Part shown: in pieces, positions 5,045 to 37,737 of the stretch
How positions within the stretch are numbered: the stretch's first letter is position 1
Layout of the letters: each line of letters starts with the position of its first letter
Assembly (NCBI GenBank): GCA_028554795.2
Contig: CM068825.1
Location: 98,139,451 to 98,203,450, forward strand
From: Sinohyriopsis cumingii
Taxonomy: Eukaryota; Mollusca; Bivalvia; Unionida; Unionidae
Direction of reading: 5' to 3'
Length of the DNA: 64,000 nt
Notes under the pieces: generated by a model
What the model was told of the DNA's origin: nothing
The model's database searches: none
The model's input: the letters and a program-made list of their open reading frames with translations, nothing else
Translations under genes and position numbers: made by a program

Positions 5045-5091
5045 AGTGTTAGGAATGTCACTTGTGACACGAAAACAGACAAGACAAGAGT

Positions 5092-5099
5092 TTATATAC
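5092..5099 (-). promoter_or_regulatory. TATA box of packaging ATPase, next to a poly(A) signal of the upstream gene
   Basis: Minus-strand AGTATATAAACT lies 48-55 bp before the ATPase ATG. An AATAAA poly(A) signal on the same strand (5114-5119) sits only ~15 bp upstream, so termination of the previous transcript and initiation of this one almost touch. Confidence 0.65.
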
Positions 5100-5126
5100 T
5101 TTTTCAGGACACGTTTATTGAATGTT

Positions 5127-6316: not shown

Positions 6317-6727
6317 GAATAGGTCAGTCCGTACAATTCACAATCTTCTCCTAGAGCAAAAGTAATCCACATAGTGAGTAATTTCTGGTCACTGCCATTC
6401 AGGGTAACGTCCAAGAATGTCACTGAACTCTTTTGATGTAAACGGTTTAGAGTAATATAATAGGATGAATGCACCCTTGACCCAGAGAAATCGAACACAT
6501 TGGTTGACTTTTTTCACTTTCGTCTTGTGAATTTCTCGGCACAAATGTTCTACAGTTACCCATTGAGATTTCACTCTGGCAAGCCCCTGCCAAACTTCCT
6601 TGTAAATCTTCTCTTGCAGTTCTTTAGGTAATGATTCAATATCGTTTATGAAATGAAGTTTAAATACTGGTCTCGGTGATGTCCAACATTTGACTCCTAA
6701 CCAATTTGGTTTCTTCTTCAACGACAT
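6271..6727 (-). pseudogene. Unknown Polinton accessory gene, first of trio (F-box-like helix)
   Basis: Starts at an ATG at 6727 directly after the BIR gene (12 bp gap). Residues 33-44 read SLPKELQEKIYK, closely matching the opening of the next gene, so the two probably arose by duplication. The body contains VKKVNQCVRFLWVKGAFILL. A frameshift near 6390-6420 moves the frame to a segment ending in LTYSWILYKRTFVLCLW. No TATA box is visible before it, so it may share the BIR transcript. Function unknown; an F-box-type adaptor is speculation. Confidence 0.5.
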
Positions 6728-6738
6728 GGCAAGTTACT

Positions 6739-7374
6739 TCAATGTCTCGGTCCCACTAAGGGTAAGTATTGACAATGCGGTGACCATCGAGGATGTTCTA
6801 CGTAGGCCGAATCTTGCGGTTCCCAGTGGTGAAGTGACACACCGCAACTGAAGCACTTGACTTTATCCCCTTCGCCCAAGTAGAAAAATCCGGCTCTGGC
6901 TAATTCTTCGGGGGTCGGTCCTCCCAGATACTTAGGCCATTTTCCTTTGAACGATTGAAGACGATTTTCAAAGTCGCAGCATTCCGACAAACGCACAGGA
7001 AATGAATATTCGTCTTTCACAGGCTCGTTTCGATGAGGGTTTGGTGACATGGACAGGAGTTTGCTCAGGGCTGGATGACATCCGTAGGTAGGTAGACGTG
7101 AAGGTGGACATCCACCTTTAAAACGAAACCCAGTAAAGTGTCCAAGAGGACGAGCGTCATCGCTTTCGCATCCCTCATGTTTGACACGCATAGCATCACT
7201 TTGCATGATAGGGGTAGAGAGAACAAAGTTCCCATGATGCTTTACGGCATCGCTAAGGTCACAACGTACAGCATCGTTCCCATCGCAAGGCTCACAATCG
7301 CATTCTACTTCAGAGTCCCCACACTTGAATTGTGTCTGTCTGAACTTGCTTTGTGTTTCTCTCAAATTATTCAT
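6739..7374 (-). CDS. BIR-domain protein (inhibitor-of-apoptosis type)
   Basis: A 211-residue intact frame. A single BIR zinc fold lies at residues 135-206: FENRLQSF, WP, ELARAGFFYLGEGD, then zinc ligands C174, C177, H194 and C201 (CFSC ... EHPRWSPHC). No RING domain follows. The N-terminal 130 residues are poorly conserved and Cys/Asp-rich around 18-38. BIR proteins in large DNA viruses block host caspase-driven death, so suppression of apoptosis in the infected cell is a reasonable inference; caspase binding cannot be judged from sequence. TATA box at 7431-7438. A decayed homologue is at 18,240-18,400. BIR genes are common in bivalve genomes, so capture from the host is plausible. Confidence 0.88.
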   Translation of the reverse strand: MNNLRETQSKFRQTQFKCGDSEVECDCEPCDGNDAVRCDLSDAVKHHGNFVLSTPIMQSDAMRVKHEGCESDDARPLGHFTGFRFKGGCPPSRLPTYGCHPALSKLLSMSPNPHRNEPVKDEYSFPVRLSECCDFENRLQSFKGKWPKYLGGPTPEELARAGFFYLGEGDKVKCFSCGVSLHHWEPQDSAYVEHPRWSPHCQYLPLVGPRH

Positions 7375-7396
7375 CTTGTTCGCTTGGACTTGGTAG

Positions 7397-10300
7397 TCAC
7401 AATGAACTATCGATCTTGCCTAGGGTTCCTTTTATATACAGACCAATACCGACGTGTCCATACGGTAAGGTGAAGTGATTGGGAAGTCGCACTCGCTTCT
7501 GGTACACGATTTGATAGACTTTTTCCAAGGATCGACTGACGATGTGGTGAGTGGGTAAACGTACAATCTTGTTGGGTTGATAGGTGGTCACTTTAAAGTT
7601 TGCATCTTCTCTAGACTGCAAGGCTTCTTTCAATACGTCAAAGTTCACCACTTGACTGGTACGATAATTCAGAGTCAGTCCTTTCACTTTACACTTCGTG
7701 TGCACTTCTCCTTGTTTGTCCCGGTATTCGTAGCCGTAATTTTTAGGACCGCCACTGGCGAAACTTAGAATCTTGTCGTCGGGGTGCTCGTCTGTCCAGG
7801 CTCCTAAACGGTCTCCTTCGATGTCAGGGTGCTGTTGACTCGGGTGCTCGATGTAAATGCAACTGTCCGTGTCAAAGTACAGGACACGTTCCCCTAACAT
7901 TTCTAAAGCTTCGTACAATTTTAAGCGAGCATGAGCTGTCACGTAAGCCGCAATGATGACATTTCCAAAGGGGTCGTCTTGTACAAAGTCCAGATCTTCT
8001 TCGTAATTGACAAAGATCAAATTCTCGCGAACGACGTCCACGTGTTTCATGAATTTGGTTTTGTCGTGAATCATCTGAAAGTAGCGGGAAGGTTCTGTCA
8101 AATGTTCCGTCTTGGGTAAACACGGTCGCTGTGCCATTTTACCCCACAAACAATTTAACATCACTTTGGCAAACGATCGCCTGCCTTCGTTTTTCTCGAT
8201 GTGATCTAAAGAGATGCCTTCTTGTGCCCGGTATTTCTCTTTGAATGTCTTTTGGTCTTCGGGAGTGTGACACCAGGAAGGATAGCCACTGGCTTCTTGT
8301 TTCAGTTTCAAAAAGGCATCCACGTAGTCTGCGAAAATGCCGTTCTGCGTGGGGTCACCCTTGTGGTATTGTTGTGTCTTGGGAAAGTGACCAATTTCGT
8401 ACACTTCTAACAGTTGGTATCCCATGTCCAAAGCTTTGAACAATTCTACGCTGACCCAGGTTCCCGTCAAGGCCCGTTCTTCCTGGGTGTCCTGACAAGT
8501 CTGGTCTTGGTTGCACGTTTCGGCACAAGTACGGCACAAAGGAAACATCAGTTTGCCTTGGCAATGGTGAGGTAAGACGGGATGGTACAAGTCCGTGGGA
8601 GGCAAAACTTTACAGTTGATCAGACCTTCGTATTGTCGAATGTTTTTCAGGTCGATGTGTTCGGTGAACAATTGTGGGTGCCCTGCAGGAAAGCGACAAT
8701 ATTTGCACACGTAGGGATACAGCGAACACAAGTCCAAGTATTTCATTTCTTCTCCTTTCTCTTCGTCAGCTTGGTACAGCAAACAGGTGGCATTGGTCCT
8801 TCATCCGTACAAACTATCCCTCGGGTTCAGGGGGTCCATGAACTGGTAACTTTCCACGAGGCGTTTAAACTCGGGATCGGTTTTCAAACGGTAATCGTAT
8901 TCGTGTTCCCACATTTCCACCACTTGGTATCCTTGCTGTTCTAACTTCAAACGTCGCTGACAAGTGTCCTGGTACAAGTCTTCCATGGTTCGTTGTAAAA
9001 ACTGATTTTTAGTGCCACGGTCAGGGTAACAGACGGGATATCCGTGAAATAAGCAACCGTTAAACTCGTACACGATCTTGGGGTTTTCTAAGTCTCAGCC
9101 ATCCACGGAACAATTTCCGATGGTCTTCTCGCCTCCTCTGTTGCGGGCATGTTGAATCCATTTGTCTTCTTTATCGCACAAGTAATGTAACCACCGTAGG
9201 GCTTTGACCGAGTATTGATGTTTGACATAGTTGGTCGTTTGAGGACTGATGACAGCAACGGTGTTTTCAGGCATGAATCGTTGCCGGTACACTAAGGAAC
9301 ACGCTTTGGCAATGATGCAAGCTTCTTTCAAAGGATCGACCCCTCCGTGTTCCATGAACAGTTCTCGAAATTTTCCACAGCAACGCCGTAAAATGTCCAC
9401 GTCGCAAAGACAATACTTTAGCATTTCTTCCTGAAAGTCGAAAGGGTCCGAGGCGTGAGTCTGGTACCAAGCGTAGAAAGCTTCTCGTTGTTCGGTACGC
9501 ATGTTGTCGGGGTCGTAGTCTTTAGCCTCAGACAAATGGGGTAGAACGGCATGTTGATTGGCTTTGGTATTGAAAAAGTGTGGAAAGTACCCTTTAGCCA
9601 TTTCTGTCATTCCAAACGTTTTAGGCATTCGACTCAAAGGCATGGCCAAGTAACTCATCGAATCTTTAAACTGTACTTGTCCCACTTTCATGAAAATGAT
9701 TTTGGCTCCGTTCAAAGTCACTTTCGGACGTTCGGTGGTATGTTCCGTATAGTACCTCAAAAGAAACTGTCCATCGTATCCGGAGAAACTGTGAGCCATC
9801 ACCTTGGCATGACGATGACAATCTCCATAACGTTCGATGTCCTCTTGGCTCCACGTCTTGTCGATGGGGTCGAAGTCCCATCGGGCGAAATCGGCTAGCG
9901 TGTTCGGTCCTTGAAAGATTTTTTCACGTCCTCCAGGAATCTTACTGCAGTGAGGGCAATGACTGAAAATAGGTTCTTGAATGCACTTTTCGCACGCTCG
10001 ATGAGCCACGCAGAAATTAGGAATGTGAATGCCGGTCTCTTGCATGCATTCGAAATCGAAAAGATGAAATTGCCTTTTTTATTCTTGTGACCGTCCTCTT
10101 TCTCTGGTTGGGGTTGGTAGTTTTGCACGTAGCATTGGTGTTCCAAGTCCACGATGTGGTGACAAATGTGACATTTTTTCTTTCCTCGACATACGTGTGT
10201 CTTGGCATTATTGGTAAGTATGCCTTGTCCACACGTAGGGCACAATCTCAGTAGTTTACAAGCACATTTCCGCTGTGAACCTTGCGTATTCAAATGTTGT

Positions 10301-11464
10301 TGGTAACAGGCAGGGCTGACAAGTTGAACAATGCACTCGTTCTTGTCCTTCGGTCCGACAGGGTGGAGAGGCCAAACATCCTGAGCATTTCGATCCACAA
10401 TGCTTGTGTTGCTCTCGATTGTTATAGCCATAGTCACATTTCTCACAGTAATAACGGTATCCTAGGAATGCGGTGATACTGGTAATGATATCGAAATGTT
10501 CATCGTGATGATAAAGGTGAATGTATTTTCCATCCTTAAAGTCTTTCCCTCGAAACAACAGAGGCCCGCGCATTTCTTGAGGGTGCACTTTCAAGGTGTA
10601 GAGTGGAGCTAGGACATCTTGCAAGTTTTGCATCTCAGGAATGCCACAGGGTGTATCTGTGGACAGACCAGCTTGTTGCAACAGGAGTTCTGCTTCGTTT
10701 TGTTGTTTGGCTCGGTCCGATTCTTGAATAGTTTTCCAGGCTCTTTTCCATTCTACCGTGTCGTTCTTGTTGGCATAGGTTCGTCCCACCACGATAGCCC
10801 TAGCTAAACATGTCTGGTCTTGAGGGTTGTGAATTTGGACGAGGCTACGCTTAATGCTGCGAAGGTCATTCACCACTAACACCTTACTGCGTTGTCCGGT
10901 CCCTTGACGAGGTGAAACGTGGGTCATGTCCAGTGTGGCTTTTCCATCGGTGATGTCAAACTGATCATTGGATTGTTGCACGTGTTGAATCTTGTCCATG
11001 ACTTTGGAAGCGGTCAATTCTGCGGGGTTGCTAAACTCGATCCTAACAGGGGATTTCAAGCCGTCGTGTTGTATGGAAGGTCTCAAGCGATCGTCTTCTT
11101 TGGGTTGACATTGTCGCTTGAGTGTGGTGAGCAAAGAATCCCACATCTCGGTGATGAACCCTTCTGCTTTCTCTAACGGTACTTCGGACTTGAAATCTGT
11201 AAACTTCACCGTGTATTTGTAAGCCGTGGTTCTAAATTTTCTGGAGGGAGGCTTTTCCGTCTCTTGAATGGAATAGTACTTTTCAGGGTTGACTAAGGGT
11301 GGTGAACTTTGTTTAGAGGGTTTGGATTCTGGTTCACTCATGTCCTCTTCAAAATCACTGGCATGAATTTGTGCCAAGACTTCAGCTCTGGTACGAGGCG
11401 ATAGATCAGATTTCTGCCTCTTACTTTCGTCTTCTTTCTTCTTATATGAATTGGATCGTTTCAC
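7397..11464 (-). pseudogene. Family B DNA polymerase, protein-primed Polinton type (broken)
   Basis: Replicative polymerase of about 1,350 codons, the usual size for Polinton PolB with its long N-terminal region. A Cys/His-rich stretch lies before the exonuclease domain (about 10,150-10,350). Proofreading motifs: Exo I FDFEC (10,046-10,060), Exo II AHSFSGYDGQFLL, Exo III YCLCDVDIL. Polymerase motifs: A YLDLCSLYP (about 8712-8740), B KVMLNCLWGK (about 8140-8170), C YFDTDSCIY (about 7861-7881). Lesions: frameshifts near 10,330 and 10,060, TGA stops near 9093 and 8783; all motifs survive. A TATA box (11,512-11,518) precedes the ATG at 11,464. The gene is divergent from the CCHC gene. Confidence 0.93.
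7431..7438 (-). promoter_or_regulatory. TATA box of BIR gene
   Basis: Minus-strand TGTATATAAAAGG, 57 bp before the BIR ATG, embedded in the 3' end of the polymerase gene. Confidence 0.6.
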
Positions 11465-11597
11465 CTTGATAGCAAAATGTCAAATGACTAAAGTTTAAAC
11501 ACCATGGACTAATTTATAGTCATGGCAGACCAGCGTATATAAAGGGTATGTGTCTTGTCCTTTCACTATTCATTTCACTCTCAAACCGAGTAGAACG
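11465..11597. promoter_or_regulatory. Divergent promoter between polymerase and CCHC genes
   Basis: Two TATA boxes face apart: ACTATAAATT on the minus strand (11,512-11,518, 48-54 bp before the polymerase ATG) and TATATAAA on the plus strand (11,536-11,543, 55 bp before the CCHC ATG). The two cores are only about 17 bp apart, so the promoters may compete. Confidence 0.65.
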
Positions 11598-12068
11598 ATG
11601 GAAGAGACTACCCAGATCGAACGTTTCATCAGAGCTTTGCGAGGGTTCATTAGAAAATTTTCTTCAGACCAGCCGTCGGACTACTCTCCTTCCTATCGAG
11701 ATAAAAGTCAAGATACTTGCTATATCTGTCAGAAGAAAGGGCATTGGTCTTCAGAGTGTCCAGACCGTCAAAAAAGCAAAACAGGGGTTAAAAGAGACAA
11801 AAGTCAAGATATCTGTTATCATTGTCAAGAAAAAGGACATTGGTCTCCAGATTGCCCTAAGAAAAAAGAGGAGAGAGAAGAAGAAGAAAGGGATTATGGA
11901 GAGGAAGATGAAGAAGAAGAGAAAGAAAGTAGACAGGTGAAGAAAAAGAAACAGGAGAAGAAAAGAAGAAGAGAAGAAAGTGAGGAGGAAGAGGAGAAAA
12001 AGACTGTGACGGTGAAGAAATTTAAAAAACAGAAAGAGCGTGAACAAAGAGAAAGAAGAAGTCTATGA
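11598..12068 (+). CDS. CCHC zinc-knuckle protein with highly charged tail
   Basis: 156 residues from the ATG at 11,598, chosen over earlier in-frame starts because it lies after the TATA box. Two CCHC knuckles: CYICQKKGHWSSEC (C41, C44, H49, C54) and CYHCQEKGHWSPDC (C73, C76, H81, C86). The linkers repeat DKSQDxCY, so the knuckles arose by internal duplication. From residue 88 the protein is almost only Lys, Glu and Arg. Such knuckles bind single-stranded nucleic acid. A role in genome or RNA binding early in the cycle is inferred from the divergent promoter shared with the polymerase. An AATAAA signal follows at about 12,124. Confidence 0.78.
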   Translation: MEETTQIERFIRALRGFIRKFSSDQPSDYSPSYRDKSQDTCYICQKKGHWSSECPDRQKSKTGVKRDKSQDICYHCQEKGHWSPDCPKKKEEREEEERDYGEEDEEEEKESRQVKKKKQEKKRRREESEEEEEKKTVTVKKFKKQKEREQRERRSL

Positions 12069-12260
12069 ACTTTTTAAAGTGCTATGTTGTGAATTGTGAA
12101 CTGGATTGTAAATATTTATAAAAGAATAAATTAGGTATAAAAGGTAAGTGTCTTTGGGTTTTGATTTTAAAATAATAACCTATACTCACGCACTCATATT
12201 CAGACACGTACTATAGGGTAAAATGTTTCTTTTTTTGAGTTATTGGCAACTGAAAGTCTA

Positions 12261-12298
12261 TCTCTTTTCGAGAGACGTGGGTGGCCCTGAAAAGGGCC
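12261..12298 (-). terminator. Histone-mRNA-type 3' stem-loop and downstream purine element (minus gene)
   Basis: On the minus strand GGCCCTTTTCAGGGCC (12,283-12,298) forms a 6-bp stem and TTTC-type loop followed by ACCCA, the canonical metazoan replication-dependent histone signal. A purine-rich element TCTCGAAAAGAGA (12,261-12,273) follows ~10 nt later, in the place of the U7 snRNA-binding element. It lies 21 nt after the stop codon of the coiled-coil gene. No histone is encoded here. Confidence 0.82.
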
Positions 12299-12319
12299 TT
12301 TTTTGGTGTAAGGGTGAGT

Positions 12320-12887
12320 TTAAGCAATCAACTTTAACTGCCTTAAGCCTTTGCTACGGCCGAGGCCTACTTCTGATGATGATGATTTGGTTGAAATCAC
12401 TAAGGGTGGTACGGTAGGCTTAGTCACAGGGCTGGAGTGTTTAGCTCGGGAAGGTCGTATTCTCTTCGGCCGTGATAAAGAAGTCTGATACATTTGTTTC
12501 AGACTTCTTAACTCCACTAAAATGTCTAACAGTACCGTGACGGTTTGACTTTCACCCTCTTGTTTCTTTGCTGCTTCTTCTTCTTCTTGTTTTCTTACCT
12601 CTTCTTCTTGCTGATGCTGCTGTAGGAGAAAAGCTTGTTCTGCTTCCTTTTGCTGCTGTATAAATTTCTCCAATTCTTCTTTCTGTCTGTCTAAAATTCT
12701 CCACGTGTGGTAATGAAGGAGAAGGTGACGAAGGTTCTGGAACAAATTCTTGCGAGGTAAGAAAATCCACATAATCCCAGTTCACCTCTTCTGAAAGTAA
12801 GTCCGGGTTCCCTTGGGTAGTCTCCACCGTCGGTTCACCCCAATTGATCGTTTTCTGAGTTTCCGTCATGTTGAAAAACTGTCGCAT
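12320..12887 (-). pseudogene. Coiled-coil protein with acidic N-terminus, unknown function (one frameshift)
   Basis: Starts at an ATG at 12,887 (MRQFFNMTETQKTINWGEP), with an acidic aromatic patch VNWDYVDFL that looks like a transcription-activator motif. A frameshift near 12,700 joins it to a coiled-coil region rich in Gln/Glu (LEKFIQQQKEAEQAFLLQQ), a leucine-rich helix VTVLLDILVELRSLKQMYQ, and a basic Pro/Ser tail. The combination suggests an oligomeric regulatory or scaffold protein; that is inference. It has its own TATA box (12,917-12,924) with a CRE/E-box pair next to it, and ends in a histone-type stem-loop. I do not recognise a family. Confidence 0.55.
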
Positions 12888-12914
12888 GGATTGACTGCGC
12901 ACAGGCGCTAGCGA

Positions 12915-16700: not shown

Positions 16701-18235
16701 CAAAACAAAGGTGCTATCGTATTCAAAACCGAAAAAGGGGGTCACGTGATCATGCTCCAGAATCTCGTTAAAATTATTTACTTGTTAAAGACCGTGTACA
16801 CCCAGTGTAGCCCTGACGAAAACCTATCATTTTATTCTAAAAAATAAAATTAAAAAATTTGTTTACATCTTAAACTCGTAGTCCCATCATGACGTCGTCA
16901 ACAACCAACCATTTTAAAATAGAAAATGAACTTATTTACATGGTTGCTACTAATTTTGAATCAGGGTCAGGATCTAGGTCAACACCTGGTGTTTACAAAA
17001 CGAACTGTCAGGGTCAAACTATTTTCTGGAAAAGTACCATATCCAGTGAATAAATTTATATTATAATAGCATGTAATGAAAAACAAATAAAATTTAAAAC
17101 TGACAAACGAACAGTTCAATTGAAATAATTATATATTAAATCAGATATAATTAAATCAAATATACATAACACTTCCTGCATACCTTTCTTGTCAACTTAG
17201 ATGCTGTAGTTGGTAAAGGTGTCATGGTAGTCTGCTTCCTTGCTTTAACTTTCGTAGCTGGAGGTGGATTTGGTGGTGGAGGTGGTTTGTTGTTTATGCC
17301 CTATATTCGTATTACACACCTTTGGATTGTGCGTTCGGCTGTTGAGTCAGCACTGGATGCTCCTTCCGTGTCTGAAATTTTCATTTCTTCGGTCCCTGGA
17401 GGCTTCTAGCATGGTATCTAATCTTCCCAAATCAGTAGAAGAGTAGTTATCTTCTCCTGTGCTCTTATGGCCCATCCTGAGGCTACTGCCAGGCCCAAGC
17501 CTTTCAGTGCACTCAGTGCTTAGTCTGGTATCATATCCATTGTCAACGCGTTTGATTCTTGTGTTCTCTTCTTTTCGATTGATGGTCTGACTGATGATGA
17601 TGATGATGATCTTTAATTAAAGATGTTTGCGACCGTTCGATCATGTACGTCTGTTCGCTGTACGCACAACTTTCTCTTTAATTATTGGTCGAACTAGTGT
17701 GTGGCATCCGCTCGATGTTTTAATGTGTGCATTGGACGCTTTGCAATTGGTCACATCCAGTACCGGCAACGGAGGACAAGGGTGAAGACGGCTCTTGATT
17801 ACCCTGAGTAGAGAATTTTGTAATGTTTTTTGTCACTCTAACTGATCCTTATCTTCATATATAATGGTAAAATTTGCCACCCAATTCATATTTTACAAAT
17901 TCCTCGGTCCAGGCAGCATCCATGGCAACATAACTTGCAACCATCCTCCTCAGCATCCCATAGTTCCTCAAGGTCAGGATATGAAAATCAACACACATCC
18001 AGGCAGAGACAGCCAATCACGATCAGGATTCTGGCCTGTATGTATCAGCTTTATACAACAGTGTGTGCTTTGTGTAAGGGTGTACCACTTGTATTCGCTT
18101 ATAAGGCGGGTTCAACTGTAAACAACATAAACCCTAATCTGCTGTCACATAGTACGCTGACAGATCTTGTCCTGTGTCGTTTATTCTATTGATTAATGCT
18201 TACAAAATGCAAATATTCAGATATGCTGAGGTTGG
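13765..18235. other. No gene recognised
   Basis: AT-rich sequence with short frames only, none with a family signature. It holds a 13-bp inverted repeat (14,426-14,438 / 14,457-14,469, arms ATCACCTCTCTGA), Gly-coding low-complexity near 17,260 and a short GAT run near 17,590. If the decayed element at 18.2-20.6 kb once had a polymerase gene, it would have lain here; I see no trace. Confidence 0.6.
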
Positions 18236-18239
18236 ACCT

Positions 18240-18400
18240 ACAACCAAATAATTAGCCAGAGCTGAATTTGTCTACTTGTGAGAAGGAGATAAAGTCAAGT
18301 GTTTCAGTTACGGTGTGTCATTTTACAAATGGGAGCAGAAAGACTCGGCTTATCTGGAACATGCTCTATGATCTCCGCACTGTCACTACCTCTGGTGGGA
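18240..18400 (+). pseudogene. BIR domain remnant
   Basis: One plus frame retains EGDKVKCFSYGVSFYKWEQ followed by KDSAYLEH, matching the second half of the BIR domain of element A (EGDKVKCFSCGVSLHHWEP). The second zinc cysteine of the CxxC pair is Tyr here, and stops interrupt the region before it, so it cannot fold as a zinc BIR domain. Confidence 0.8.
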
Positions 18401-18419
18401 TCCTAGAAGTATCTCATCT

Positions 18420-18790
18420 TCATGGACACTCTAAAAGAGAACATTCGTGGTTTGCCTCTGAAACTAAGGGAATGCACTTACAGTGAGCTCGTCAAGATAC
18501 GAGTGTAACGTGAATAACAATTGCATCCTTTACGACACCAATGTTTAAAACCACTGGTACCCGAATGATCTAAGAAGACTGATTCTTTTGAAAGTGTTTA
18601 AATGGTGAGACGTTGATCAACTACCCGAGAATCAGAATATTTTGGATGCTACGACTTCTACTTACAAGGTGATGATTCTGCAAAAAGTTCCAAAGGAAGA
18701 CCAATTACTTCCAAAAAACACAATGCTGTGAATAACTAATTTAGAAGAACACATTCAAAACTTTGCGGGAACGGATTTACAGAGTTTGTC
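18420..18790 (+). pseudogene. Remnant of second trio gene
   Basis: Begins MDTLKENIRGLPLKLRECTY, the counterpart of the gene at 5824-6316. Later pieces such as ESEYFGCYDFYLQGDD correspond to its central part. Several stops and frameshifts are present. Confidence 0.68.
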
Positions 18791-19000: not shown

Positions 19001-19141
19001 AGCACCATGCTACGGCCTTTATTAGTACCGTTGCAGCAAATTCAGTGGAAGGAAGTCCTTGACTTTAGTCAGACTTGAGACGGATAGCCCCAAACTTTTA
19101 CTTTTGTTTCCATTAAATTCTGGGACACTATGTCGTGTGTG

Positions 19142-19301
<160 letters not shown>

Positions 19302-19302
19302 A

Positions 19303-19905
19303 CTACGTTTCTGGAATTTCGTTCACCAGCAGATTTGTTGTGGACTATGGTGACTATTTATGAATAGTTCCCGCAAAGACATAATGGTCACTGCACCTTT
19401 AAATATGAACGACTCATGCTGTTAAAAACGTTGCGCTGTCATATCGATACTTCTCAACCTCTCTGTGAAGAAAATATTTTTAACGCCTTATTGACTTTTG
19501 ATGCATACGAAGATGTGTGTGTAACTTGCTGGTTATACGAACATTGCAAAGATGTACGTGACTGAAAACGTTTTGGCTTTGATGCTCGGACGCAAGAAGT
19601 AGCTGAATATGCCAAAGATCTATGTTACTGATTTGATACAAAAAGTGGACTTAAAACCCAAAGTGAACGTGACATTCAAGCCCATGTTAGGAACAGCAGT
19701 GGATGAACCCGACATAGGAAAACTAAGTTCAGGATACTACCGTCGTTCGCATCGAAAGGCAAATCCGGGAGAAAAATTAGAGATTGTGCGTGTTGTAGAT
19801 ATTCAAAGACTACAAGGACGTATACCTAGAAATACTAGGGCACACTACAAGGACGTATACCTAGAAATACTAGGGCACACTTTGATCGACAATGTTGTAT
19901 ATTGA
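19303..19905 (+). pseudogene. Remnant of third trio gene
   Basis: The plus strand encodes [10 protein letters not shown], then an out-of-frame stretch with ERLMLLKTLRCHIDTSQPL and DAYEDVCVTCWLYEHCKDVRD, then KVNVTFKPMLGTAVDEPD. These match the gene at 5127-5852 in order, which also shows that the last part of that gene is coding. The final frame (19,609-19,905) is open for 98 codons. Confidence 0.72.
19812..19881 (+). repeat. Perfect 35-bp tandem duplication
   Basis: The 35-bp unit beginning ACAAGGACGTATACCTAGAA occurs twice without mismatch. It lies in the coding remnant, is not a multiple of three, and being identical must be recent compared with the decay around it. Confidence 0.9.
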
Positions 19906-20084
19906 CGTGTATATATTCCACTTTGATCATTTTGCTCTGTATTTTATCCATGTACTTAACCGTTTGGCTCTAATGTGTTTTTGTACTTGATGAAAAGCTG
20001 TGAGTTTGAACACCTGATAAATGTGTCTGAAAACTATATAATTTCTTGTGTGGTTCATGTCATTTTCAGAATTCTAATCACCTT

Positions 20085-20500
20085 CGCTATGGCTATCTTC
20101 TTTCTCTTCCTCTGCTCTCAAAGTCATTGACTAAAAGTTAGATCGTGCAAGTTGGGAGGCACTGTATCTTCGCCATCTCTTTAACATGTTGGTTGTCTGA
20201 CAGAGTGGTTCAGACAAAACCGATCTGTAAAAATTTGTGACCGAACATAAAGAGTATTTGACGGATCGTACACCCCAAAGTATCGTATGGTGTTACAAAA
20301 AGTGGCAATCGGCTTGAGGCCTACTTCAATAAAGTCAAGAAGAATCTATTATCGTTGTCGAAGGCATCCCTCACAAAGATGACGAGATTGTGTCTGACTT
20401 GAGACAAACATATAAGTCATCTTCGATGACAGTTAGGAACCATGGCTGAATTATGCGTACGATGGTGCCACTCCAGCACCTCAGGTATATTGACGACCCT
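20085..20500 (+). pseudogene. Packaging ATPase remnant with internal deletion
   Basis: Segments WEALYLRHLFNMLVV, SGSDKTDL (a decayed Walker A), SIVWCYKKWQSA and IIVVEGIPHKDDEIVSDL follow the ATPase of element A. After IFDD of Walker B the sequence jumps to WLNYAYDGATPAPQVY, so roughly 80 codons are deleted. Stops and frameshifts are also present. Confidence 0.82.
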
Positions 20501-21907: not shown

Positions 21908-22142
21908 AGCAGCAGGGAGGGCGAACAACCTCTAATTGGTTCACCTGTATTTCGTCAAATTAAGCCTTCCTACAAGATCACAAAAATCGTTTAAAAAATG
22001 CGATATCTAGCGTAAGACAACTCCGTCGATGACAAATTGTCTTACCTGTTATCGCCGATATGTTTTTTTTTTCTTTGTCGCATTGAAGGAAAAATGCGCG
22101 ATCGTCAGTGAAAGTTGACAGCGTCTCCCCCTCTGCTGCTAT
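21908..22142 (+). repeat. Left terminal inverted repeat of element B
   Basis: 235 bp, starting AGCAGCAGGGAGGGCG and matching the reverse complement of 37,502-37,737 with few mismatches and indels. Each repeat is itself framed by short inverted ends: AGCAGCAGGGAGGG outside and CCCCCTCTGCTGCT inside. Confidence 0.95.
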
Positions 22143-22167
22143 GAATTAAAAATTGCTATACCAAATA

Positions 22168-23617: not shown

Positions 23618-25086
23618 TCACCATTTGGAAAATAGGCAATTGTATAAAATGTTCAAACGCATATCCGACCCAGCATTTAACATAGATGAGCCAGTCCAGC
23701 GAGATAACTCAGTGCTTGATTATCAGTTTTATTCCTATGATGCAAAGAAACCAGACCAACGAGCGCGTTTCGAACTTCAAGTTCATGATACAAGTAGATA
23801 TTTCCTGCCCGCTGAGGCGTTTATTGAAGTAGAAGGTGAACTTGTAAAGGCGGATAATACTGCATACAATCCCAATACACGAGTTGGTTTTGTCAATAAT
23901 GGAATTATGGCACTGTTTAGTAGCGCCATATATATGATTGTTGAAAAAATATCGAATCGATTCAGAATGATGTCGATGTTGCTACAACAATAATTGGTCT
24001 AGCAAGATATTCTGACGATTACACAAGATCAGCTGGTCCATCAATGATGTTTGCCAAAGATATTACCGACAACGCCGATCATATTCAGTATATTAAGTTA
24101 CGAACACCACGAAATACTGCATCTGATCCACAGCCAGCTGGCCCTGTATACGAAGCTAGACCAGCTGATGTTTTTGATATTATGAAAGGTATTAGTGAGA
24201 CTTACAACGTGGGATTTTTAACACGCCAAGCAATGTTGTCAGGAACACGAAAAAGTGTTTCGTGCGCGATTCCACTCTCTCATTCTTCGGATTTTGCAGA
24301 GATGTTAGAAAGGTCATCTTTGGAGCCAAACACACAGTTGTGCTCGTAAGAAAAGGTAATGATAATGATGCGATCTGGCGAGGAGCTGGTGTCGATGCTG
24401 GTATGGTAAATATAACAAAACTTTCATTGTGGATGCCGGTATTAACTCCATCGGTCACAGAAGAACCGCGAATACTCTCTTTTATGAATCAAGGCGGTAA
24501 ATCACTGTTATCGTGGTTAACAGTAACCACAGATACTATCCAAAGTTCCGTCAAAGATATATTTACTTGGCATATAGCATCACAACAAGGGGTTTCTGCG
24601 CCACGACATATTTTTATTGCGCTGCAAGATAATCGTCCTGGCTAACAATCAGGAACGTTCGCATATGATATTTGACAAACTCGACGTTACCGAGGTTTCG
24701 TTGAGGATAACGGGCAACAAGAACCGTCTGGGGATATATTATTAAGTTTCACACATAATCATGTGGCGCGCGCATATAATCGCTGGCTGACGTTTCTGTC
24801 GCGTAATATAAATATAGATACTGGGACTCAAATATCACAGTTTGATTTTACAAATTTGTACCCGATTTATTACTTTTCGCTGGAGCATCTTGATTTATCC
24901 AAACAATCTGTCGTTGATATACACTTCCGAGCTCGTGTTGGTACCCCACCAGTTCTCGCGACTGGTCCGCCAATTGTTTATGGCACCTATAAAGCAATCG
25001 CGGTCATTTTCAGTGACAAAGCAATGTTACTTGAAGGCATTAGTGGTCGAATGAGAGTTGTTGATGCACCAGTAGAAAACATGTAG
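23592..25086 (+). pseudogene. Major capsid protein, double jelly-roll type (multiple lesions)
   Basis: About 500 codons with the features of Polinton hexon-like capsid proteins: VQRDNSVLDYQFYSYDAKKP near the start, YFLPAEAFIEVEGEL, a central RKGNDNDAIWRGAG region, the NRPG-QSGTFAYD phrase, and a C-terminal FDFTNLYPIYYFSLEHLD followed by a last-strand DKAMLLEGISGRMRVVDAP. Frameshifts near 23,960, 24,270, 24,680 and 24,720 and a TAA near 24,643 interrupt it. The end recurs in element C (46,840-46,960). Start uncertain: GTG 23,592 overlaps the pX-like gene; ATG 23,649 is an alternative. Confidence 0.82.
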
Positions 25087-25137: not shown

Positions 25138-25593
25138 ATGACATAGAGTCACGTTAATGTCACTCTGACTAATGGTCAGGCAAAAAAATTACAATCAACA
25201 AACGCGAACGCATGTGGGGCAACGATAACACTAAAACAAGATCAAATCGCTAATGGTGGCCCAAACAAGTTATCGCTGACTAAAACCCAACTAAAACATT
25301 TCAATAAAGCGAAGCAAGCGAAAACTGGAACTCAACTTGATTTCGCTCCAAAAGTCATCAAGGATATGGTTAAAACCGGTGGTATATTTCCACTTCTCGC
25401 AGCAATACCAGTACTGATAGCTGCTGCTGCCCCAGCTGTCGCAAAAGCAGCCTCGTTAGGAGCTGTTGGAACAGCTGCTGGAATGGCATTAAAGAAAGCA
25501 ACTGGAAAAGGATACAAAAAAGGACAATCCGTGAACGTATACGGCCTAAGACTTCCAGGAACTCTGCCCTCATGGTATCCCAAACGGTTTTAA
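25138..25593 (+). pseudogene. pVI-like amphipathic/hydrophobic minor capsid protein
   Basis: Reads VNVTLTNGQAKKLQ, later LSLTKTQLKHFNKAKQAKTG, then a Gly/Ala hydrophobic segment (FPLLAAIPVLIAAAAPAVAK) and a basic end (KKATGKGYKKG). I know this order from a Polinton protein compared with adenovirus pVI, the membrane-lytic capsid-lining protein; lysis here is inference. A TAG is the third codon after the ATG at 25,138; otherwise the 151-codon frame is open. Element C has a remnant with the same Ala-rich segment at about 46,530-46,740. Confidence 0.75.
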
Positions 25594-25979
25594 CACCGAT
25601 GTCAAATTTCAGAGGTGTTTTTATGAGAGATCAATTACCACAACAACCGAATAATCCAGAAACTGGAATTATTAATCTCGATAACAGCGATGGTCCAGGA
25701 ACTCACTGGGTTGCTTACGCGATACATTCACGTGGAATTATTTATTTCGATTCGTATGGGTTAGCACCGCCAGTTGAATTCCTCAAATACGCACGAAGCA
25801 CTTCCATTCCAGTCTGATATTCAACGCTACCAACACAAACACTAACCGATCCACCAATATGTGGCCGTGAAGTATTAAATGTTCTTGACGTGATATCAAA
25901 ATCGGCCAAACCACCTCACAGAGTCGTGCACAAATATACCGCGGGTCGATTTAAACAATCGTTAAAGAATAATGGTTGA
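25572..25979 (+). pseudogene. Adenain-type cysteine protease (capsid maturation), one stop
   Basis: Matches the adenovirus/Ulp1-like C5 fold: catalytic His in GTHWVAY, acidic residue in IYFDSYGLAPP, and nucleophile Cys in PPICGREVLNVL. The frame is continuous over about 135 codons except for a TGA at 25,815-25,817 between the acid and the Cys, so the present gene would make a product lacking the nucleophile. It starts inside the end of the pVI-like gene and overlaps the fibre gene start (25,972). In adenoviruses the enzyme cleaves pVI and other precursors; the same order of genes here fits that. A remnant is in element C near 46,020-46,330. Confidence 0.85.
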
Positions 25980-27589: not shown

Positions 27590-28958
27590 ACAGAATTTAG
27601 TATTAATTTTCCAACTGCGATTCCAGTGAAAGAAATCGCGTTAGCACAATTACGAGTATATTACAGCTGGCCCAATATCAGATCAAAATCATTTGGTAGA
27701 TTACCAGCAAATAGTTCGTTTGCGTTTGCAAATAAAAATAAACAAGATGGCACTCCCGACTGGAATGTCATTTGGTTACCAACCGGGTCTTATCAAATCG
27801 AAGAAATCAATGAGGAATTACAACGTCGAATAAAAAATATCACAGGAAAAGAATCCAAGATAACAATAACTGTTCATGAACCAACGCTGTCTTCTGCAAT
27901 CGAGATAAACTCTCCAGACTACGCCGTGGATATATATCCGAGTTCGATCAGAACAGTGTTAGGATGGCCTAAAATCCCACCACCGGCACCACCGATACCA
28001 CCAGAGCCCAAAAAGTCTGATTATATCACTGACAATAAATCATACCACGAAGTTAAACCATCATACAAAGAATTGTTGTTTGGAATAAAAAATTCAAAAT
28101 TGAAAGAATGTTTTACTGCCAATTTTGATGGTTTAGGATTGAGCAGAGATCAGGCCATGTACTGGAGTTTTGATTTAGACCCTCCCGTGAAAGTAGGAGA
28201 GATAACACATACAGGTTATTATTTTAAATTACAAAATATTATTAGATATTTTGAAGAAATTAATCAATTACATAAAACACAACTACAGCAAATACGGCAG
28301 CGCTTCCAAGAACATCTCTTTGATACATCGCTACGAAGTAAAATCATCACGCGAATAGAAATATTAAATCAAATTGTATCCGACATGGAATATATTAACC
28401 AGCGTGCAATTCAGATAATAATTGATAAGAGTAGTATTAAAGATAAACAAACATTTCTAGATTCATTCTTGTTAACAGAGGCGAATCTACCGAATTTTAA
28501 ATTTCCCGGGTATAATGCAACCGAGCTAAGAAGATCCGTTAGTGATCTCATCAATGAATTCTTTGATGACATACTTGCACAGTGGAGAAAAACACTACCG
28601 GAGCCAACTATTCTCCGATACAACAATAACTCACAAGGAGAAGCCGACATGTGTCCCCGGAAATCGTAAAGATAACCGAAGTGGTCGCGGTCAGTCTTGT
28701 ATGGGATGTAATCGATGGCAGCTACAGCACGGACACGACAGTATCAAATCAATCCCAGCAAGGATTTGTTCTTTATTCATTCACCCCGAAAGATATACCA
28801 CCTGGATTCTGATTGTGCAAGAGCCGATCAATCCTGTCTATCTATGATGTCATAATCCGTGGCTATCAAGAATAAATTTCAAATTAACAGACCAATCTGG
28901 TCACCTTCTTGCTTTACGAGGTGAAACACTACATATTAATTTGCTTGTGAAATCATAA
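27492..28958 (+). pseudogene. Minor capsid (penton-like) protein with large helical insertion
   Basis: ATG at 27,492 opens a ~35-codon Asn/Thr-rich leader (MTELLQQIAANTNQTAANTN). After a frameshift near 27,600 the body reads FPTAIPVKEIALAQLRVYY and LPTGSYQIEEINEELQRRI, the pattern of Polinton single-jelly-roll pentons. The end of the protein is kept in broken form near 28,840-28,958 (FKLTDQSGHLLALRGETL), typical of the final strands. Between the two lie about 220 residues of helix-rich sequence (e.g. YFEEINQLHKTQLQQIRQRF) not expected in a penton. Several frameshifts and a TGA near 28,810 are present. Confidence 0.68.
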
Positions 28959-29447: not shown

Positions 29448-29941
<494 letters not shown>

Positions 29942-31502: not shown

Positions 31503-31797
<295 letters not shown>

Positions 31798-31825
31798 TTA
31801 TTTAAATGTTTGTCTTAAATATAAT

Positions 31826-34800
31826 ATGGAGGAATTTGAAAGATTATCTGCAATCAAGCCCTGGAAAGCTTCTAGATTCGATCTTGACAGACTAACCTCT
31901 GACTCGCGGAGACGAGCCCTGACTGATCTGATTGATATTATCAGGGATGCCAAAAAAGAATTTCGTAATGATGGAGCATCTCACATATGGTCTACATTCA
32001 AAATTATACGCGACACTGACGAAGACAAGGACGCAACAATGAGCGATGCACGAGCGAAAACAATTATCAATTACCTCTTTGATAATCAGAAATATCATTT
32101 CAGAATAAAGTTTATTGTGCAAGCAGATTCCGATACTTGGATTATCCGTGACAAACGTGATCCTGCCCTTGATAATGGAAAAGCCGCTCTGTTAAGTAAA
32201 GATTCCAAACCAAGAATGTTGACTGGGATTGATAAACCATATTACACTCGATCGTATCCTGTAACAGCGGTCATTTATGGAATCTATCCGATAAAAAAAC
32301 CAAAAATCAATAAACTTTCCCCAATGAGATTGTCAAGGCTAAATTGTGTAGCCGAGCGAGTAATCGAACATTTTAAAAATGCGAAGCGTAGAAACTGTTT
32401 AAATGATCTGCGACGTGAAAAAATGAACAAATTGGCTGAATCGGTTAAGGATACAGGAGCGTCAATAAAACGATGTCGTGAATTATCAAGTAAATTAAAG
32501 TTTCCAATGATAGCAAAAACATTAACGAGGGAGGTTTTATATGAATCAGCGAATAAAGGAAAAGGAACACCAATTGAAATTATTGACCACAACGCTCACG
32601 CTTGGACCACCGCAGTCACAATATTTCCACGAAATCGTGTTGTGAGATATTACTTGTCAGGTGGAATGTTTGATGCTATCAGCCGGATAAGCAAAAACGA
32701 CCCTGTGTCGGTGTGGTTGTTTAAAAGTTCCGAAGATGGCGAGTATGATCAATTTGTAAGACCTAACGGCGAATTATATCGTACAGAATCTCTCCACGAA
32801 GAAATGAGAAAACTCGCACAGAGATATTCAGAAAACACTGAGCAGTTATTAACTAATTGTTTTACAGTTTCCTCAGTTGCTGCCCACGCCGCTCGAGAAA
32901 GAAATTCATGGAGACCAACACGCGCTGAGTTCCTTGAAGATGTTCAGTTAAGTTGTATCGAATACAGACATGACGGTTTGTGGAATACCAAATATGACCA
33001 CAAGGATATCATTTCTGTGGACATGACTGCATGTTATCCGGGAAGTTTTCTCGGGATGGGCGAGTGTGCTGGATATTTTAAAAGATTTGGTCATCCTTGT
33101 CATAAGATGGCAAGAGTATCAATTAATGGTCCATTACCCGATTTTTCCCTGACAGGATTTGCTCGTTTAGTGTCGTTTGAATTTACTATGAATCTTCATC
33201 CGATTTGTTATATTTGGTTTGGCAGACATTTTTCGGAGAAACGTTGGGCACCAATAGTGTTATTACGATATATGCTTGACAGTAAAATATTGATATCGTT
33301 GACGGTCAGTGAAGCGATCATATCATACCGAAAACAGACTTCGGTTTAGTTACCAACACCGGAATGTATCAGTGTAGATGAGGTCATTGAAGAATATGCG
33401 CGAGAGTGTCCAAATGTTTCTGCTGATGTCATTGTTAATGATGCTCCTAATATTCTTAAGATTAAACTCAGCAACAGTGAAAAAACAACAAAAGATCTCG
33501 GTAGAAGAATAATTGGTAAATTTACTCAAGGTGGTGCATATGATCATAAACGGCATCACTCATAATTGATTATGGATGATGTTGAATTAGATTTTATAAT
33601 TGCTGATGCCGCTGCGAGAAATATATTTTGTAATCGGGAAGACGCTTATTTGTCTGACGGAACACGGTTGGGTACAATTGTTAGTTACATTAATGGAGAA
33701 TCACCTCAGTACACACATTTAAGATCTTCGATGCTGGCTTATGTTTCTATAAATTTACTATCGCAAATAACTAGATTTCCCGACACTGCAGTTAGAGTTG
33801 CAACGGATTCATTTTATATCGATAAAAGATATTCAGAATTACTGGCTCGTTTTACAAGCAATGATGAATCATGGGGCTCGTGGAGAATAAAAAAGGAAAT
33901 GTTACATTGTTATTGTGAATCCGCTGATGTTGCGGTTAAAGATAGTTATTGCAAATCAGAATTATTAGAATTGTCGTCGGCGCCGTCTGGGTATGATCCA
34001 GTATCCAGACACAAAACCGTTTATTTGAACGGACCTGGAGGTTCTGGTAAGACAACTCGAGTGTTCGAATTATTTCGACAGAATTCAGATATGATTGTGC
34101 TAACACCAACACACAGACTCACCATGGAGATGAAACAACGAGGAGTTAATTCTTGTACTTATCACAGCTTTTTCAAATACAGCGGTGGTGTGTGGACTCC
34201 TGACCGAATTGAAGAGAAATATATCCCAAAAGTTATTATTTGGAATGAAGTGTGCACAGTGCCGTTAGAAACATTAAAAACGTTTCTTGATTGGTTATTA
34301 ACAAATAATACTGCAGTAGTTATGTGCGGCGATCACGGTCAGCCACCTCCGCTTGTTGGACCATCTCCACACGATTGGTTGAAACATTTTGTTGATTATT
34401 ACGAAGTAGTGACTGATGATCACAGATCTCTTGATGCAATGTTGAAGGAATTTAAAACATTAATCATACTACAACCGAATAAAATTCAATGTGAAATAAT
34501 GCGCAAAGTGATTTCAGAAACTTGAATAAGCGACTTTTGGAAAACGTGGAGACCAAACGATTTGATAGTGGCAAGTAGAAAGATAGTCAGAGACACACTT
34601 CAACAGCAGTTATTTCAATTACACAAGAAAACATTTCCAATGTTGCCAGTGCCGTTGTGTTATAGAGCAGCTGATACACGACTACAAAATATTGACGTTG
34701 ATATACCAGGACAGTCAGGGGAAAAAAATCTCGTATTAAATGATATTGTCACAGTTGATGTCAATGTTGTTGAAGATACGCTGCGCGCTGACCAATCCCC

Positions 34801-35020
34801 GTGGACGCTAGGATACGCAATGACGATTCATTCATCTCAAGGACTGACTATTACTGATACAGTTGTTTGGATCGTTGATGATCGAATCGAGTGGTCAAAC
34901 TTAGTTTACTTGGCTGTGTCCAGAGTCAGAAGAATATCTCAACTGCAGAGAATTGTCTTGGACGAGTCAATGGCTGATGACAACGATAAATGTCAAGTCG
35001 ATATAATAAGAAAAAATTAA
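31826..35020 (+). pseudogene. PolB-like DNA polymerase fused to SF1 (Pif1/RecD-like) helicase
   Basis: One reading frame of 1,064 codons interrupted only by three in-frame stops (TAG 33,347, TAA 33,563, TGA 34,523) and no frameshift. The N-terminal ~390 residues are of unknown fold; no 3'-5' exonuclease motifs are seen. Polymerase: motif A IISVDMTACYPGSF (33,017), a motif-B-like RRIIGKFTQGG (33,504), motif C VRVATDSFYI (33,793). Helicase: Walker A NGPGGSGKTTR (34,031), motif II IIWNEV, motif III MCGDHGQPPP, and LGYAMTIHSSQG with YLAVSRVRR. It takes the place of the usual Polinton polymerase. Motif A has Ala-Cys where canonical enzymes have Ser-Leu, and motif C reads ATDS. Confidence 0.85.
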
Positions 35021-35084
35021 CTAGTTACAAACAAAGTGACCAAAAAAAAATAATCGAGAATTTGACCTTGATGTTGAATTTATC

Positions 35085-35267
35085 ATGACACTGAAGCAAC
35101 AGCAGAATAATCACTGTGCGAGCTGTAATTGTATAATGTTGTGGCAGTATCTGAGTAATAATCCGAGACAATTCACCGTAGATAGAAAAGATAACAGTCG
35201 CGGTCATACACGAGAAAATGTGATGCTGACCTGTCTTGAATGTAATCGACGTCGGGGTGCTAGTTAA
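35085..35267 (+). CDS. HNH nuclease-like zinc domain protein
   Basis: 60 codons from the ATG at 35,085 (the frame is open a little upstream). CASC and CLEC form a zinc site; between them FTVDRKDNSRGHTRENVML gives the Asp, His and Asn of an HNH fold. It follows the polymerase-helicase gene by 65 bp on the same strand and may once have been a C-terminal domain of it or a separate nuclease. Intact. Confidence 0.7.
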   Translation: MTLKQQQNNHCASCNCIMLWQYLSNNPRQFTVDRKDNSRGHTRENVMLTCLECNRRRGAS

Positions 35268-36214
35268 GTGATCTGGGTGGTAATTGTGTGTCCTCGGGAA
35301 TTACTTGTAATTGTTCACGTGTGAATCCACGTTGAGGAGCAGTTGAATCCAGTCTATAAATTGCGGATCTACCTGTAGATCTAGATATCTTGTGTGTGGT
35401 AATACTCCAGATAGGATCAGTCGCTCTCTTTTTACCACCTTCAAGTTCACCTGGTTCATATAAATATCTCACAGTGACATTACCCAGTATTGGTTGTGCT
35501 GAAAAATCACGTCGCTGTGGTATATTTTTTTTGGTAATTGCATTAATAGGTTTCATGTTGGTTGTTCGAGTTATTTCATTATTTAATGCAGTTATCACGC
35601 TTGGTAATCTTGCAACCCATTTGCGAGATCTCTTGTCCTGAATGAATTCCTTCGCGTACTGATATCCAAATAACCGCTCAGCAAGTGTTCGATTAAATCG
35701 CTCAACAATTGCCTGATCACGGTGAATTTCAGTATGTCCTCGTCTGATGGTGACGTTATGTTGTTTCATCAGCGATGATACCGCGCCCTGAAATTCTTTT
35801 GCCAGGATCAACTTGTAACAACTGTGGCCATTGTAGAGGTCCTCGTTGATAAATTCGTTCAAAAGCAGAAGCAACCTCAGATGCTGTTTTAGTCATTAAC
35901 GGTTCTACATCTTTGTATCTACTTGCAACATCAACTACAGTTAACGCGTACTTGTATGTAATTTGACGTCTTCGGATTTTAACGGTATCATGTGGTAGAA
36001 ATAATATATCAGCTTGGTGAACTTCATTAGGAACACTAACATCAAAATGTGCGAAGTGAATTTTCTTAGGGCGCGGTAGATAAATTTGCCATATTGCCTG
36101 TTTGGATAACCAGTCTGCTGCAGCATCACGTGTGACTTTTGCTGCACTGGCAAGTTTACTAATTGCTGTGCTACCCCTCCAATATCCTCTTGGGGAATAA
36201 TAAATCGACTCCAT
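35260..36214 (-). pseudogene. Polinton integrase (one frameshift)
   Basis: ATG at 36,214. N-terminal YYSPRGYWRGSTAISKLA, then the DDE core: first Asp in HQADILFLP, second in LLQVDPG, Glu in AIVERFNRTLAERLFGY. A single extra base in an A run near 35,793 shifts the frame just after the second Asp; both halves are otherwise open. The C-terminal ~100 residues (GNVTVRYLYEPGELEGGKKR ... RSAIYRLD) resemble the SH3-like DNA-binding end and there is no chromodomain, unlike element A. It would insert the element into host DNA. Confidence 0.9.
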
Positions 36215-36219
36215 TATAT

Positions 36220-36816
36220 TTAATTACCAGCACCTAGCGCTAATTTACCTTTAATTGCGGATTTTATTAACCAACTAGCTAACCTCTCCTTGAAAGATTT
36301 ATCAGTAATGGAATTTATCGCGTGAATTAATTTCACATCCGCGAGATGCATGTCTTGTAGATTTTTACTTTTATAAGCTACATCATCAGCGTGACACGCT
36401 TTATCAATATCGTTTATCGGATACTCACCTGGTTTTGGTTGATCTTGGTCATCAAGACTGATATCAAGTCTGGTTCCAGGACCACAGTAATTATATCCTG
36501 GGAGATGTTTTTCTCCTGGATATTTAGCCCACGGAGCTCCTGGAAGTTTTATTAACTTGGCGGCAATATCACCTCCTTTTTTTATACTTGGCGCTGGCTT
36601 TGACTTTGATTTTGGTTTTGACATTGGCGCTGACTTTGGTTTTGGCTTTGGTTTTTCACCTGACTGCGTTGACTTGCCAGTGGAAATAAATTTAAATTTC
36701 TTTGTACCGCATCGCTCACACTTACCTGTAAGTGCTGATCTGTTATTTTTTGTTGTAACAGTTGTTGTATCTGTTGTTGGGGTACGTGCTCTACATTTTA
36801 AACAATATAAATCCAT
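36220..36816 (-). CDS. Zinc-ribbon plus phospholipase A2-like protein
   Basis: 198 intact codons. Residues 1-47 carry CLKC and CERC, a zinc ribbon (DUF5679-like) often found in viral and Polinton proteins. A Lys/Pro/Ser-rich linker with repeated KPKSK units follows. From about residue 93, WAKYPGEKHLPGYNYCGPGTRLD is the calcium-loop signature of parvovirus VP1-type PLA2, and NDIDKACHADDVAYKSK matches the active helix, except that the residue aligned with the catalytic His is Asp. In parvoviruses this domain breaches the endosome; here activity is doubtful. Divergent from the ATPase, 21 bp apart. Confidence 0.8.
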   Translation of the reverse strand: MDLYCLKCRARTPTTDTTTVTTKNNRSALTGKCERCGTKKFKFISTGKSTQSGEKPKPKPKSAPMSKPKSKSKPAPSIKKGGDIAAKLIKLPGAPWAKYPGEKHLPGYNYCGPGTRLDISLDDQDQPKPGEYPINDIDKACHADDVAYKSKNLQDMHLADVKLIHAINSITDKSFKERLASWLIKSAIKGKLALGAGN

Positions 36817-36837: not shown

Positions 36838-37502
36838 ATGGAAATCACTCACTTTTCTGCAACAAGGAAACGAGAACCAGTTAAGCATCACGTAGCGCTA
36901 CCAAATTCTGTTCGTATGATTATAATTGGACCATCTGGGAGTGGTAAGACACAGTTGTTACTTAATTTAATAATGAAGTGGATGAAGTGGGATAAGTTGT
37001 ATTTGGTAGCACCATCTGTGGACGATCAACGATGCTACGAAGTGTTAAAAGATTTTAATGAAAGTGCAAAGTCATTAAATGAGAGTGGAGATAATGTTGT
37101 TGAATTTATAACTGACATTAATGAAGCGCCAAGTATTGATGATATTGATGGATTTATTAATAATTTAGTTGTTTACGATGATGTAATGTTGGATAAACAA
37201 TCAAATCCAGCTAGGATATTTTCCAGAGGTAGACACAAAAACACAGATGTGATTTATGCAACCCAAAGATACACCCAAATTCCTAAAGTGATCAGAGATA
37301 ACTGTAATATTCTTACTGTCTTTAACGGAGTTGATACACGTTACGAAATATTCATCAGACTTGGTGTAGCGGTGATATGGATATGAATAAGTTTAGAAAC
37401 TTCTTTCCACGAGCGCAAGCTACTCCACACGGATTTATAACAATAAATTTACATGATCCTCGAACACGGTATCGAATCGGGTTAGATAAAATTTTTGGAT
37501 GA
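36838..37502 (+). pseudogene. A32-like packaging ATPase (one frameshift near the end)
   Basis: ATG at 36,838. Walker A MIIIGPSGSGKTQLL near residue 30, Walker B NLVVYDDVML near residue 115, and a sensor-like DVIYATQRYTQIP. The frame is lost by a one-base change near 37,370 and resumes as MDMNKFRNFFPRAQATPHGF, typical of the family's C-terminus, ending in a TGA at 37,500-37,502 that touches the terminal repeat. A distinct lineage from the element A ATPase. A truncated remnant sits in element D at 60,780-61,161. Confidence 0.88.
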
Positions 37503-37737
37503 TAGCAGCAGAGGGGGAGACGCTTTCAACTTGTCACTGACGATCGTGCATTTTTCCTTCAATGCGACAAAGAAAAAAAAAACATATCGGCGATAACAGG
37601 TAAGCCAATTTTCATCGACGGAGTTGTCTTACGCCAGATATCGCATTTTTTTTTACGATTTTTGTGATCTTGTAGGAAGGCTTAATTTGACGAAATACAG
37701 GTGAACCAATTAGAGGTTGTTCGCCCTCCCTGCTGCT
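37502..37737 (-). repeat. Right terminal inverted repeat of element B
   Basis: Reverse complement of the left repeat, with scattered single-base differences and indels (for example in the central A/T runs). The ends are AGCAGC...GCTGCT type as on the left. Confidence 0.95.

Follow-up and report, generated by a model that had tools for sequence, protein, structure and literature searches.

A reading frame at positions 31826 to 35020 of a 64,000 nt stretch of the mussel Sinohyriopsis cumingii (GCA_028554795.2, contig CM068825.1, positions 98,139,451 to 98,203,450, forward strand; hereafter the window) was analyzed together with the Polinton that carries it. The frame is very probably a decayed Polinton replication gene of the pPolB-S1H kind, coding for a terminal-protein-like (TP-like) domain, an OTU-like protease, a protein-primed family B polymerase (pPolB) palm without recognisable exonuclease, a Pif1/RecD-like superfamily 1 (SF1) helicase and an HNH nuclease. 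The gene lies in the window as follows:

31826 to 33346, plus strand: fusion gene piece 1, N-terminal region and palm motif A (VDMTACYP), based on the open frame, an N-terminal model and homologues
33350 to 33562, plus strand: fusion gene piece 2, B-like palm motif IIGKFTQGG
33566 to 34522, plus strand: fusion gene piece 3, palm motif C (VATDS) and helicase motifs I-III (GPGGSGKT, WNEV, GDHGQPPP); Pfam AAA_19
34526 to 35017, plus strand: fusion gene piece 4, helicase C-terminal half (TIHSSQG, AVSRVRR); Pfam UvrD_C_2 at E 0.0014, below the cut-off
35040 to 35264, plus strand: HNH nuclease domain; Pfam HNH at E 0.0049, below the cut-off

Pieces 1 to 4 share one reading frame with in-frame stops at 33347, 33563 and 34523, and the window copy is unable to encode the fusion protein as a single chain. 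An earlier note on this DNA, made from the letters alone, had described an SF1 helicase directly behind polymerase-like motifs A, B-like and C in one frame; these motifs, like the three stops, are where it placed them. Its extent of 31826 to 35020 does hold the four pieces but stops short of the HNH piece, and its domain content was right for palm and SF1 helicase while overlooking the C-terminal HNH domain, the OTU-like region and the weakly supported TP-like N-terminus. The HNH piece is out of frame with the helicase in the window copy, yet in frame in loci L004 and L009 and in natural homologues. The helicase motif WNEV, also listed in that note, is present in the window but is not the family form, since 51 of 52 aligned relatives have the Asp of WDE. 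In the codon alignment of 20 rows (19 loci and the window itself) 17 have this Asp and two have Asn, one of them the window, where it is a further mark of decay besides the stops.

The palm-helicase fusion is natural and not a product of decay, because all 26 distinct loci compared share its order, single-chain homologues reach 1,367 aa and the ratio of nonsynonymous to synonymous substitution rates (dN/dS) is below 1 along the whole protein. The 2.9 Gb genome was searched with only the best candidates scored, so that match counts are lower bounds: at least 125 matches were scored for piece 3 and at least 85 for piece 1, with 17 places common to both lists, which gives a total of 193 or more separate places. 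The 28 loci compared represent 26 distinct places including the window (two locus pairs overlap); eight were best matches and the rest were chosen mostly for long frames, making L009 to L028 a non-random sample. In the window and all 25 other places the five pieces stand in the same order, on the same strand and at near-equal spacing. Together with the existence of full-length homologues this excludes a chance arrangement, and the fusion is kept as a unit, as the earlier note had supposed. In locus L009 a single open frame of 1206 codons extends to include the HNH domain, and in L023 a frame of 1138 codons stays open past helicase motif VI. L009 is itself also decayed, deviating at conserved residues of motif B, the helicase motifs and HNH; its protein matches PHROG endonuclease VII (E 3.2e-7).

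Natural single-chain homologues in the protein collection are up to 1,367 aa long, many having 1,000–1,270 aa. The homologue set comprised 52 proteins; P0056 was left out of alignment A1 (55 rows), and alignment A2 held 44 chosen rows. Palm and helicase are both present by length cut in 47 of the 55 A1 rows, the other 8 falling under the cut. Separate polymerase and helicase genes are therefore rejected, as both regions occur together in the 26 loci and the 47 homologues. Among 20 loci (190 pairs) the median dN/dS is 0.245 at a median dS of 0.42, and between the window and L009 it is 0.32 for the N-terminal region, 0.29 for the palm, 0.25 for the helicase and 0.26 for HNH. These low values in all parts indicate that, while the lineage was replicating, purifying selection maintained the parts together. 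Palm and helicase trees share 15 of 44 splits, and four pairs of splits with support above 0.95 are in conflict, so that some recombination between palm and helicase is possible. Copies are in places clustered, with four fusion genes on contig C170 and, on contig C6 (122365296–122380761), a pair of N-terminal matches separated by about 14 kb, which suggests clustered insertion or later duplication.

The domains were assigned by structure and profile. In the model of a natural homologue the palm matches phi29 DNA polymerase and the helicase part matches RecD2/Pif1, so that structure prediction places the first part with polymerases and not with some other family. In profile searches, Pfam assigned helicase families to piece 3 (AAA_19, E 1.5e-9; AAA_30, E 3.3e-7) but no polymerase family to pieces 1 and 2, and the PF03175 polymerase profile matched no scanned piece or relative of the fusion protein. 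Searched by profile, the PDB returned helicase proteins and one weak PacI match, with no polymerase; a single protein query by sequence gave no PDB match. The HNH residues are conserved in aligned relatives, the His in 43/43 and the four Cys in 43/44, 44/44, 43/43 and 43/43.

No exonuclease domain was matched by Pfam in the window pieces or scanned relatives, in agreement with the earlier note, and only one acidic column conserved at 90% or more lies between the OTU-like region and motif A. However, the phi29 superposition begins at model residue 271 (phi29 residue 52), and a remnant of the exonuclease fold is thus possible in a protein that has no recognisable exonuclease. Compared with the PDB, the model of the N-terminal region (31826–33016) is weakly like a Y-family little-finger/PAD domain at residues 15–159, and weakly OTU-like at residues 170–259. 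These resemblances point, weakly, to a TP-like N-terminus and an OTU-protease-like domain upstream of the palm; Foldseek with this model returned nothing at E 0.001 or better.

The earlier note took the arrangement to suggest a different replication mode. It is not new, being that of a published fusion. Passages of PMC11071308 describe the Tlr1-like helicases (pPolB-S1H), found in Tlr1 of Tetrahymena, polinton-like viruses (PLVs) and transpovirons, as TP-vOTU-palm-S1H proteins without exonuclease, some PLVs varying in having GIY-YIG or HNH at the C-terminus; an origin of these nucleases by intein invasion is suggested there. The mussel fusion belongs by architecture to this kind. Shared with it are a palm followed by a C-terminal SF1 helicase in one chain, the lack of a recognisable exonuclease, a motif C without its first Asp, a C-terminal homing-type nuclease and an upstream region, here weakly OTU-like, in which Cys and His are conserved; with Tlr1 it also shares an RVE (retroviral-type) integrase (PMC11071308). 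In contrast, the mussel fusion sits in a Polinton of an animal genome, and in the searches made it had no sequence match to any protein named Tlr1-like. Its N-terminus weakly resembles the PRD1/LF-PAD type of TP, a type reported in Polintons and TvV-S1 and in neither Tlr1 nor the transpoviron Mama (PMC11071308). The pPolB of the mavirus virophage likewise has TP, vOTU and palm without most of the exonuclease and lacks the same motif C Asp, whereas the mavirus helicase is a separate SF3 gene (PMC11071308).

The Helicase SF1-pPolB of OmPLV from Oxyrrhis marina also joins an SF1 helicase and a pPolB in one protein; however, its helicase is N-terminal and its exonuclease retained, and its authors inferred an independent origin (PMC12721341). 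The mussel fusion is not of this type, since its helicase follows the palm and no exonuclease family was matched. That it arose independently of the Tlr1, PLV and transpoviron fusion, as those authors propose for OmPLV, is unlikely. Such convergence would fit the named hits, which come from mussel, coral and fungi, with no recognised Tlr1, PLV or transpoviron protein among hits that are mostly unnamed. It would also fit the IMG/VR scan (four pattern matches, none confirmed). Two matches in the phage collection were both limited to the helicase part. Yet the domain order and the missing motif C Asp are those of the published fusion, the C-terminal HNH is found in some PLVs (PMC11071308), OmPLV differs in the respects just given, and the model aligns structurally along a viral protein of 999 aa, albeit at a low TM-score. 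A structural match to mavirus pPolB was found at E 2.4e-10 and TM-score 0.17/0.27.

It is improbable that the palm is a catalytically dead scaffold in a helicase-nuclease, with synthesis supplied by a host polymerase or, in trans, by the canonical pPolB of neighbouring Polintons. The first Asp of motif C is indeed replaced, by Ala in 51 of 53 aligned relatives, a change that the authors of PMC11071308 earlier took as inactivating the Tlr1-like palm, and the window also contains an element with canonical pPolB, albeit one that is likewise broken up. Against this, the motif A Asp is kept in 51/51 aligned relatives and the remaining motif C Asp in 53/53, and palm dN/dS versus L009 (0.22–0.47) resembles the values for the rest of the protein. 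The same Asp is also absent from mavirus and other active polymerases, and pPolB-S1H is predicted to be an active, protein-primed polymerase (PMC11071308). The three stops might finally suggest two genes joined by deletion or decay in the window copy only, an idea that the common order and spacing of the 26 loci, the long single-chain copies and the homologues refute for the fusion family.

In the likeliest mechanism for this gene, a hydroxyl of the N-terminal domain would prime synthesis at the ends of the terminal inverted repeats (TIRs), the OTU-like protease would split the primer domain from the polymerase, and the palm, with its predicted activity, would copy the strand. Pif1 and RecD2 move 5' to 3'. 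With this polarity on the displaced strand, a fused helicase of this sort would advance in the same direction as the fork and would aid strand displacement, perhaps standing in place of the proofreading exonuclease; the RVE integrase would then insert the replicated product. A compensatory relation between exonuclease loss and helicase gain has been proposed (PMC11071308).

The host element was delimited by its TIRs (about 248 bp); between them lie an integrase and a capsid gene, in line with the earlier note, along with further genes:

21908 to 22154, no strand: left TIR, 94.8% identity over 249 columns to 37490–37737 reversed; ends AGCAGCAGGGAGGG
24262 to 24642, plus strand: double jelly-roll (DJR) capsid protein piece; Pfam DJR-like_dom PF21738, E 1.1e-11
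25374 to 25814, plus strand: probable adenovirus/Ulp1-type protease piece; Peptidase_C48 E 0.038 and Peptidase_C5 E 0.093, both below the cut-off and on overlapping residues
31010 to 31399, minus strand: free-standing HNH_3 endonuclease gene upstream of the fusion gene; Pfam HNH_3 E 1.4e-12; in 18/20 loci
35263 to 36223, minus strand: RVE integrase in two overlapping frames; Pfam rve E 9.1e-5, below the cut-off
36223 to 36816, minus strand: DUF5679 and phospholipase A2-like protein; Pfam E 4.1e-13 and 4.5e-10; in 19/20 loci
36838 to 37383, plus strand: A32-type genome-packaging ATPase; Pfam Pox_A32 E 3e-13; in 19/20 loci
37490 to 37737, no strand: right TIR, found in 10/20 fetched loci

The element is Polinton-like by its integrase, capsid gene, ATPase and TIRs, and non-canonical by its polymerase. 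TIRs, the DJR capsid protein and the probable protease are shared with Polintons generally. Among the 20 longer loci the integrase frame 35263–35892 recurs in 20/20 and the frame 35759–36223 in 19/20, while a large, unassigned open reading frame at 27590–28666 was matched in 4/20, the loci mostly stopping before it. Polinton insertions follow a rule of 6-bp target-site duplication; the 6-mers flanking the element ends here (CATTAA and AGTAAA) show no clear duplication, which may have decayed. No canonical pPolB was found between the TIRs, the best tblastn match with the pPolB pieces of the neighbouring element having E 0.34, and a canonical polymerase elsewhere in the fusion element is rejected. 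Long TA-type dinucleotide runs lie at 31667–31822 (just upstream of the fusion gene), 29809–29940 and 19128–19295. They translate as YIYIY, and such runs make up the 25 longest inverted-repeat pairs shown.

A second, canonical Polinton occupies the minus strand at about 1–12,900 (bounds approximate):

1009 to 1971, minus strand: rve integrase
4367 to 5149, minus strand: A32-type ATPase piece
6742 to 7374, minus strand: BIR-domain protein
7400 to 8782 and 9098 to 10045, minus strand: pPolB pieces; PF03175 E 6.8e-20 and 9.6e-14

Both elements have an RVE integrase (33% identity over 60 aa, E 6.6e-6) and an A32-type ATPase. However, the canonical element carries PF03175 pPolB pieces, whereas in the fusion element none was found and a helicase-fused palm takes their place. 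The two replicases lie on one chromosome, with about 12 kb between the end of the canonical one and the fusion element's left TIR. Segments 18234–18620 and 19892–20438 are 70–80% identical, in inverted orientation, to parts of the canonical element (4682–5238, 6118–6319 and 6766–6921) and may represent part of a related element.

Among relatives with a source name, the closest to piece 1 comes from the mussel Sinanodonta woodiana, with 56% identity across 53% of the piece. Most homologues carry no source name; named sources are Sinanodonta, the coral Desmophyllum, the fungi Diversispora and Racocetra, and bacterial metagenome-assembled genomes (MAGs) labelled Thiodiazotropha. P0048, P0053 and P0056 are relatives in the arbuscular mycorrhizal fungi Diversispora epigaea and Racocetra fulgida, and transfer of the fusion gene between animals and fungi is possible. 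P0057 and P0068 are filed under MAGs of Candidatus Thiodiazotropha, a clam symbiont, and are likely host contamination.

The literature covered also took in passages of PMC10120064, PMC4642659, PMC3671162 and PMC10294476, and of PMC12220804, where PLV-like elements in insects are mentioned with entomopoxviruses and without this gene. In titles, abstract starts and passages of the literature searched, with most subscription papers outside reach, no animal case of the fusion was reported, a negative that does not prove its absence. A 2016 paper by Krupovic et al., known to us by its title, reportedly treats this fusion; the title names Polintons, and animal cases may already be in it.

What may be new is the host setting: an animal genome in which the fusion belongs to a Polinton that has TIRs, an integrase and a capsid gene and lies close to another Polinton with canonical polymerase. 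We tentatively suggest, as a possibility somewhat short of an even chance, that a true-Polinton lineage of animals and fungi, bearing capsid genes and integrating by RVE integrase, swapped its exonuclease-bearing polymerase for a TP-vOTU-palm-S1H-HNH protein while keeping a PRD1/LF-PAD TP. Such a lineage would link canonical Polintons to the Tlr1-like replicases of transpovirons and protist viruses as an intermediate that has survived. It would also be the first of its kind in animals, sharing a genome with canonical Polintons. Because the PF03175 profile matched no scanned piece or relative, surveys based on it can miss elements of the fusion type. The link between exonuclease loss and helicase gain has so far, in passages of PMC11071308, been drawn from transpovirons and viruses of protists. 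With its many copies, an animal lineage of this architecture in a Polinton setting offers a large natural sample for testing that trade-off, and lets one ask whether animal Polintons have swapped replication modules.
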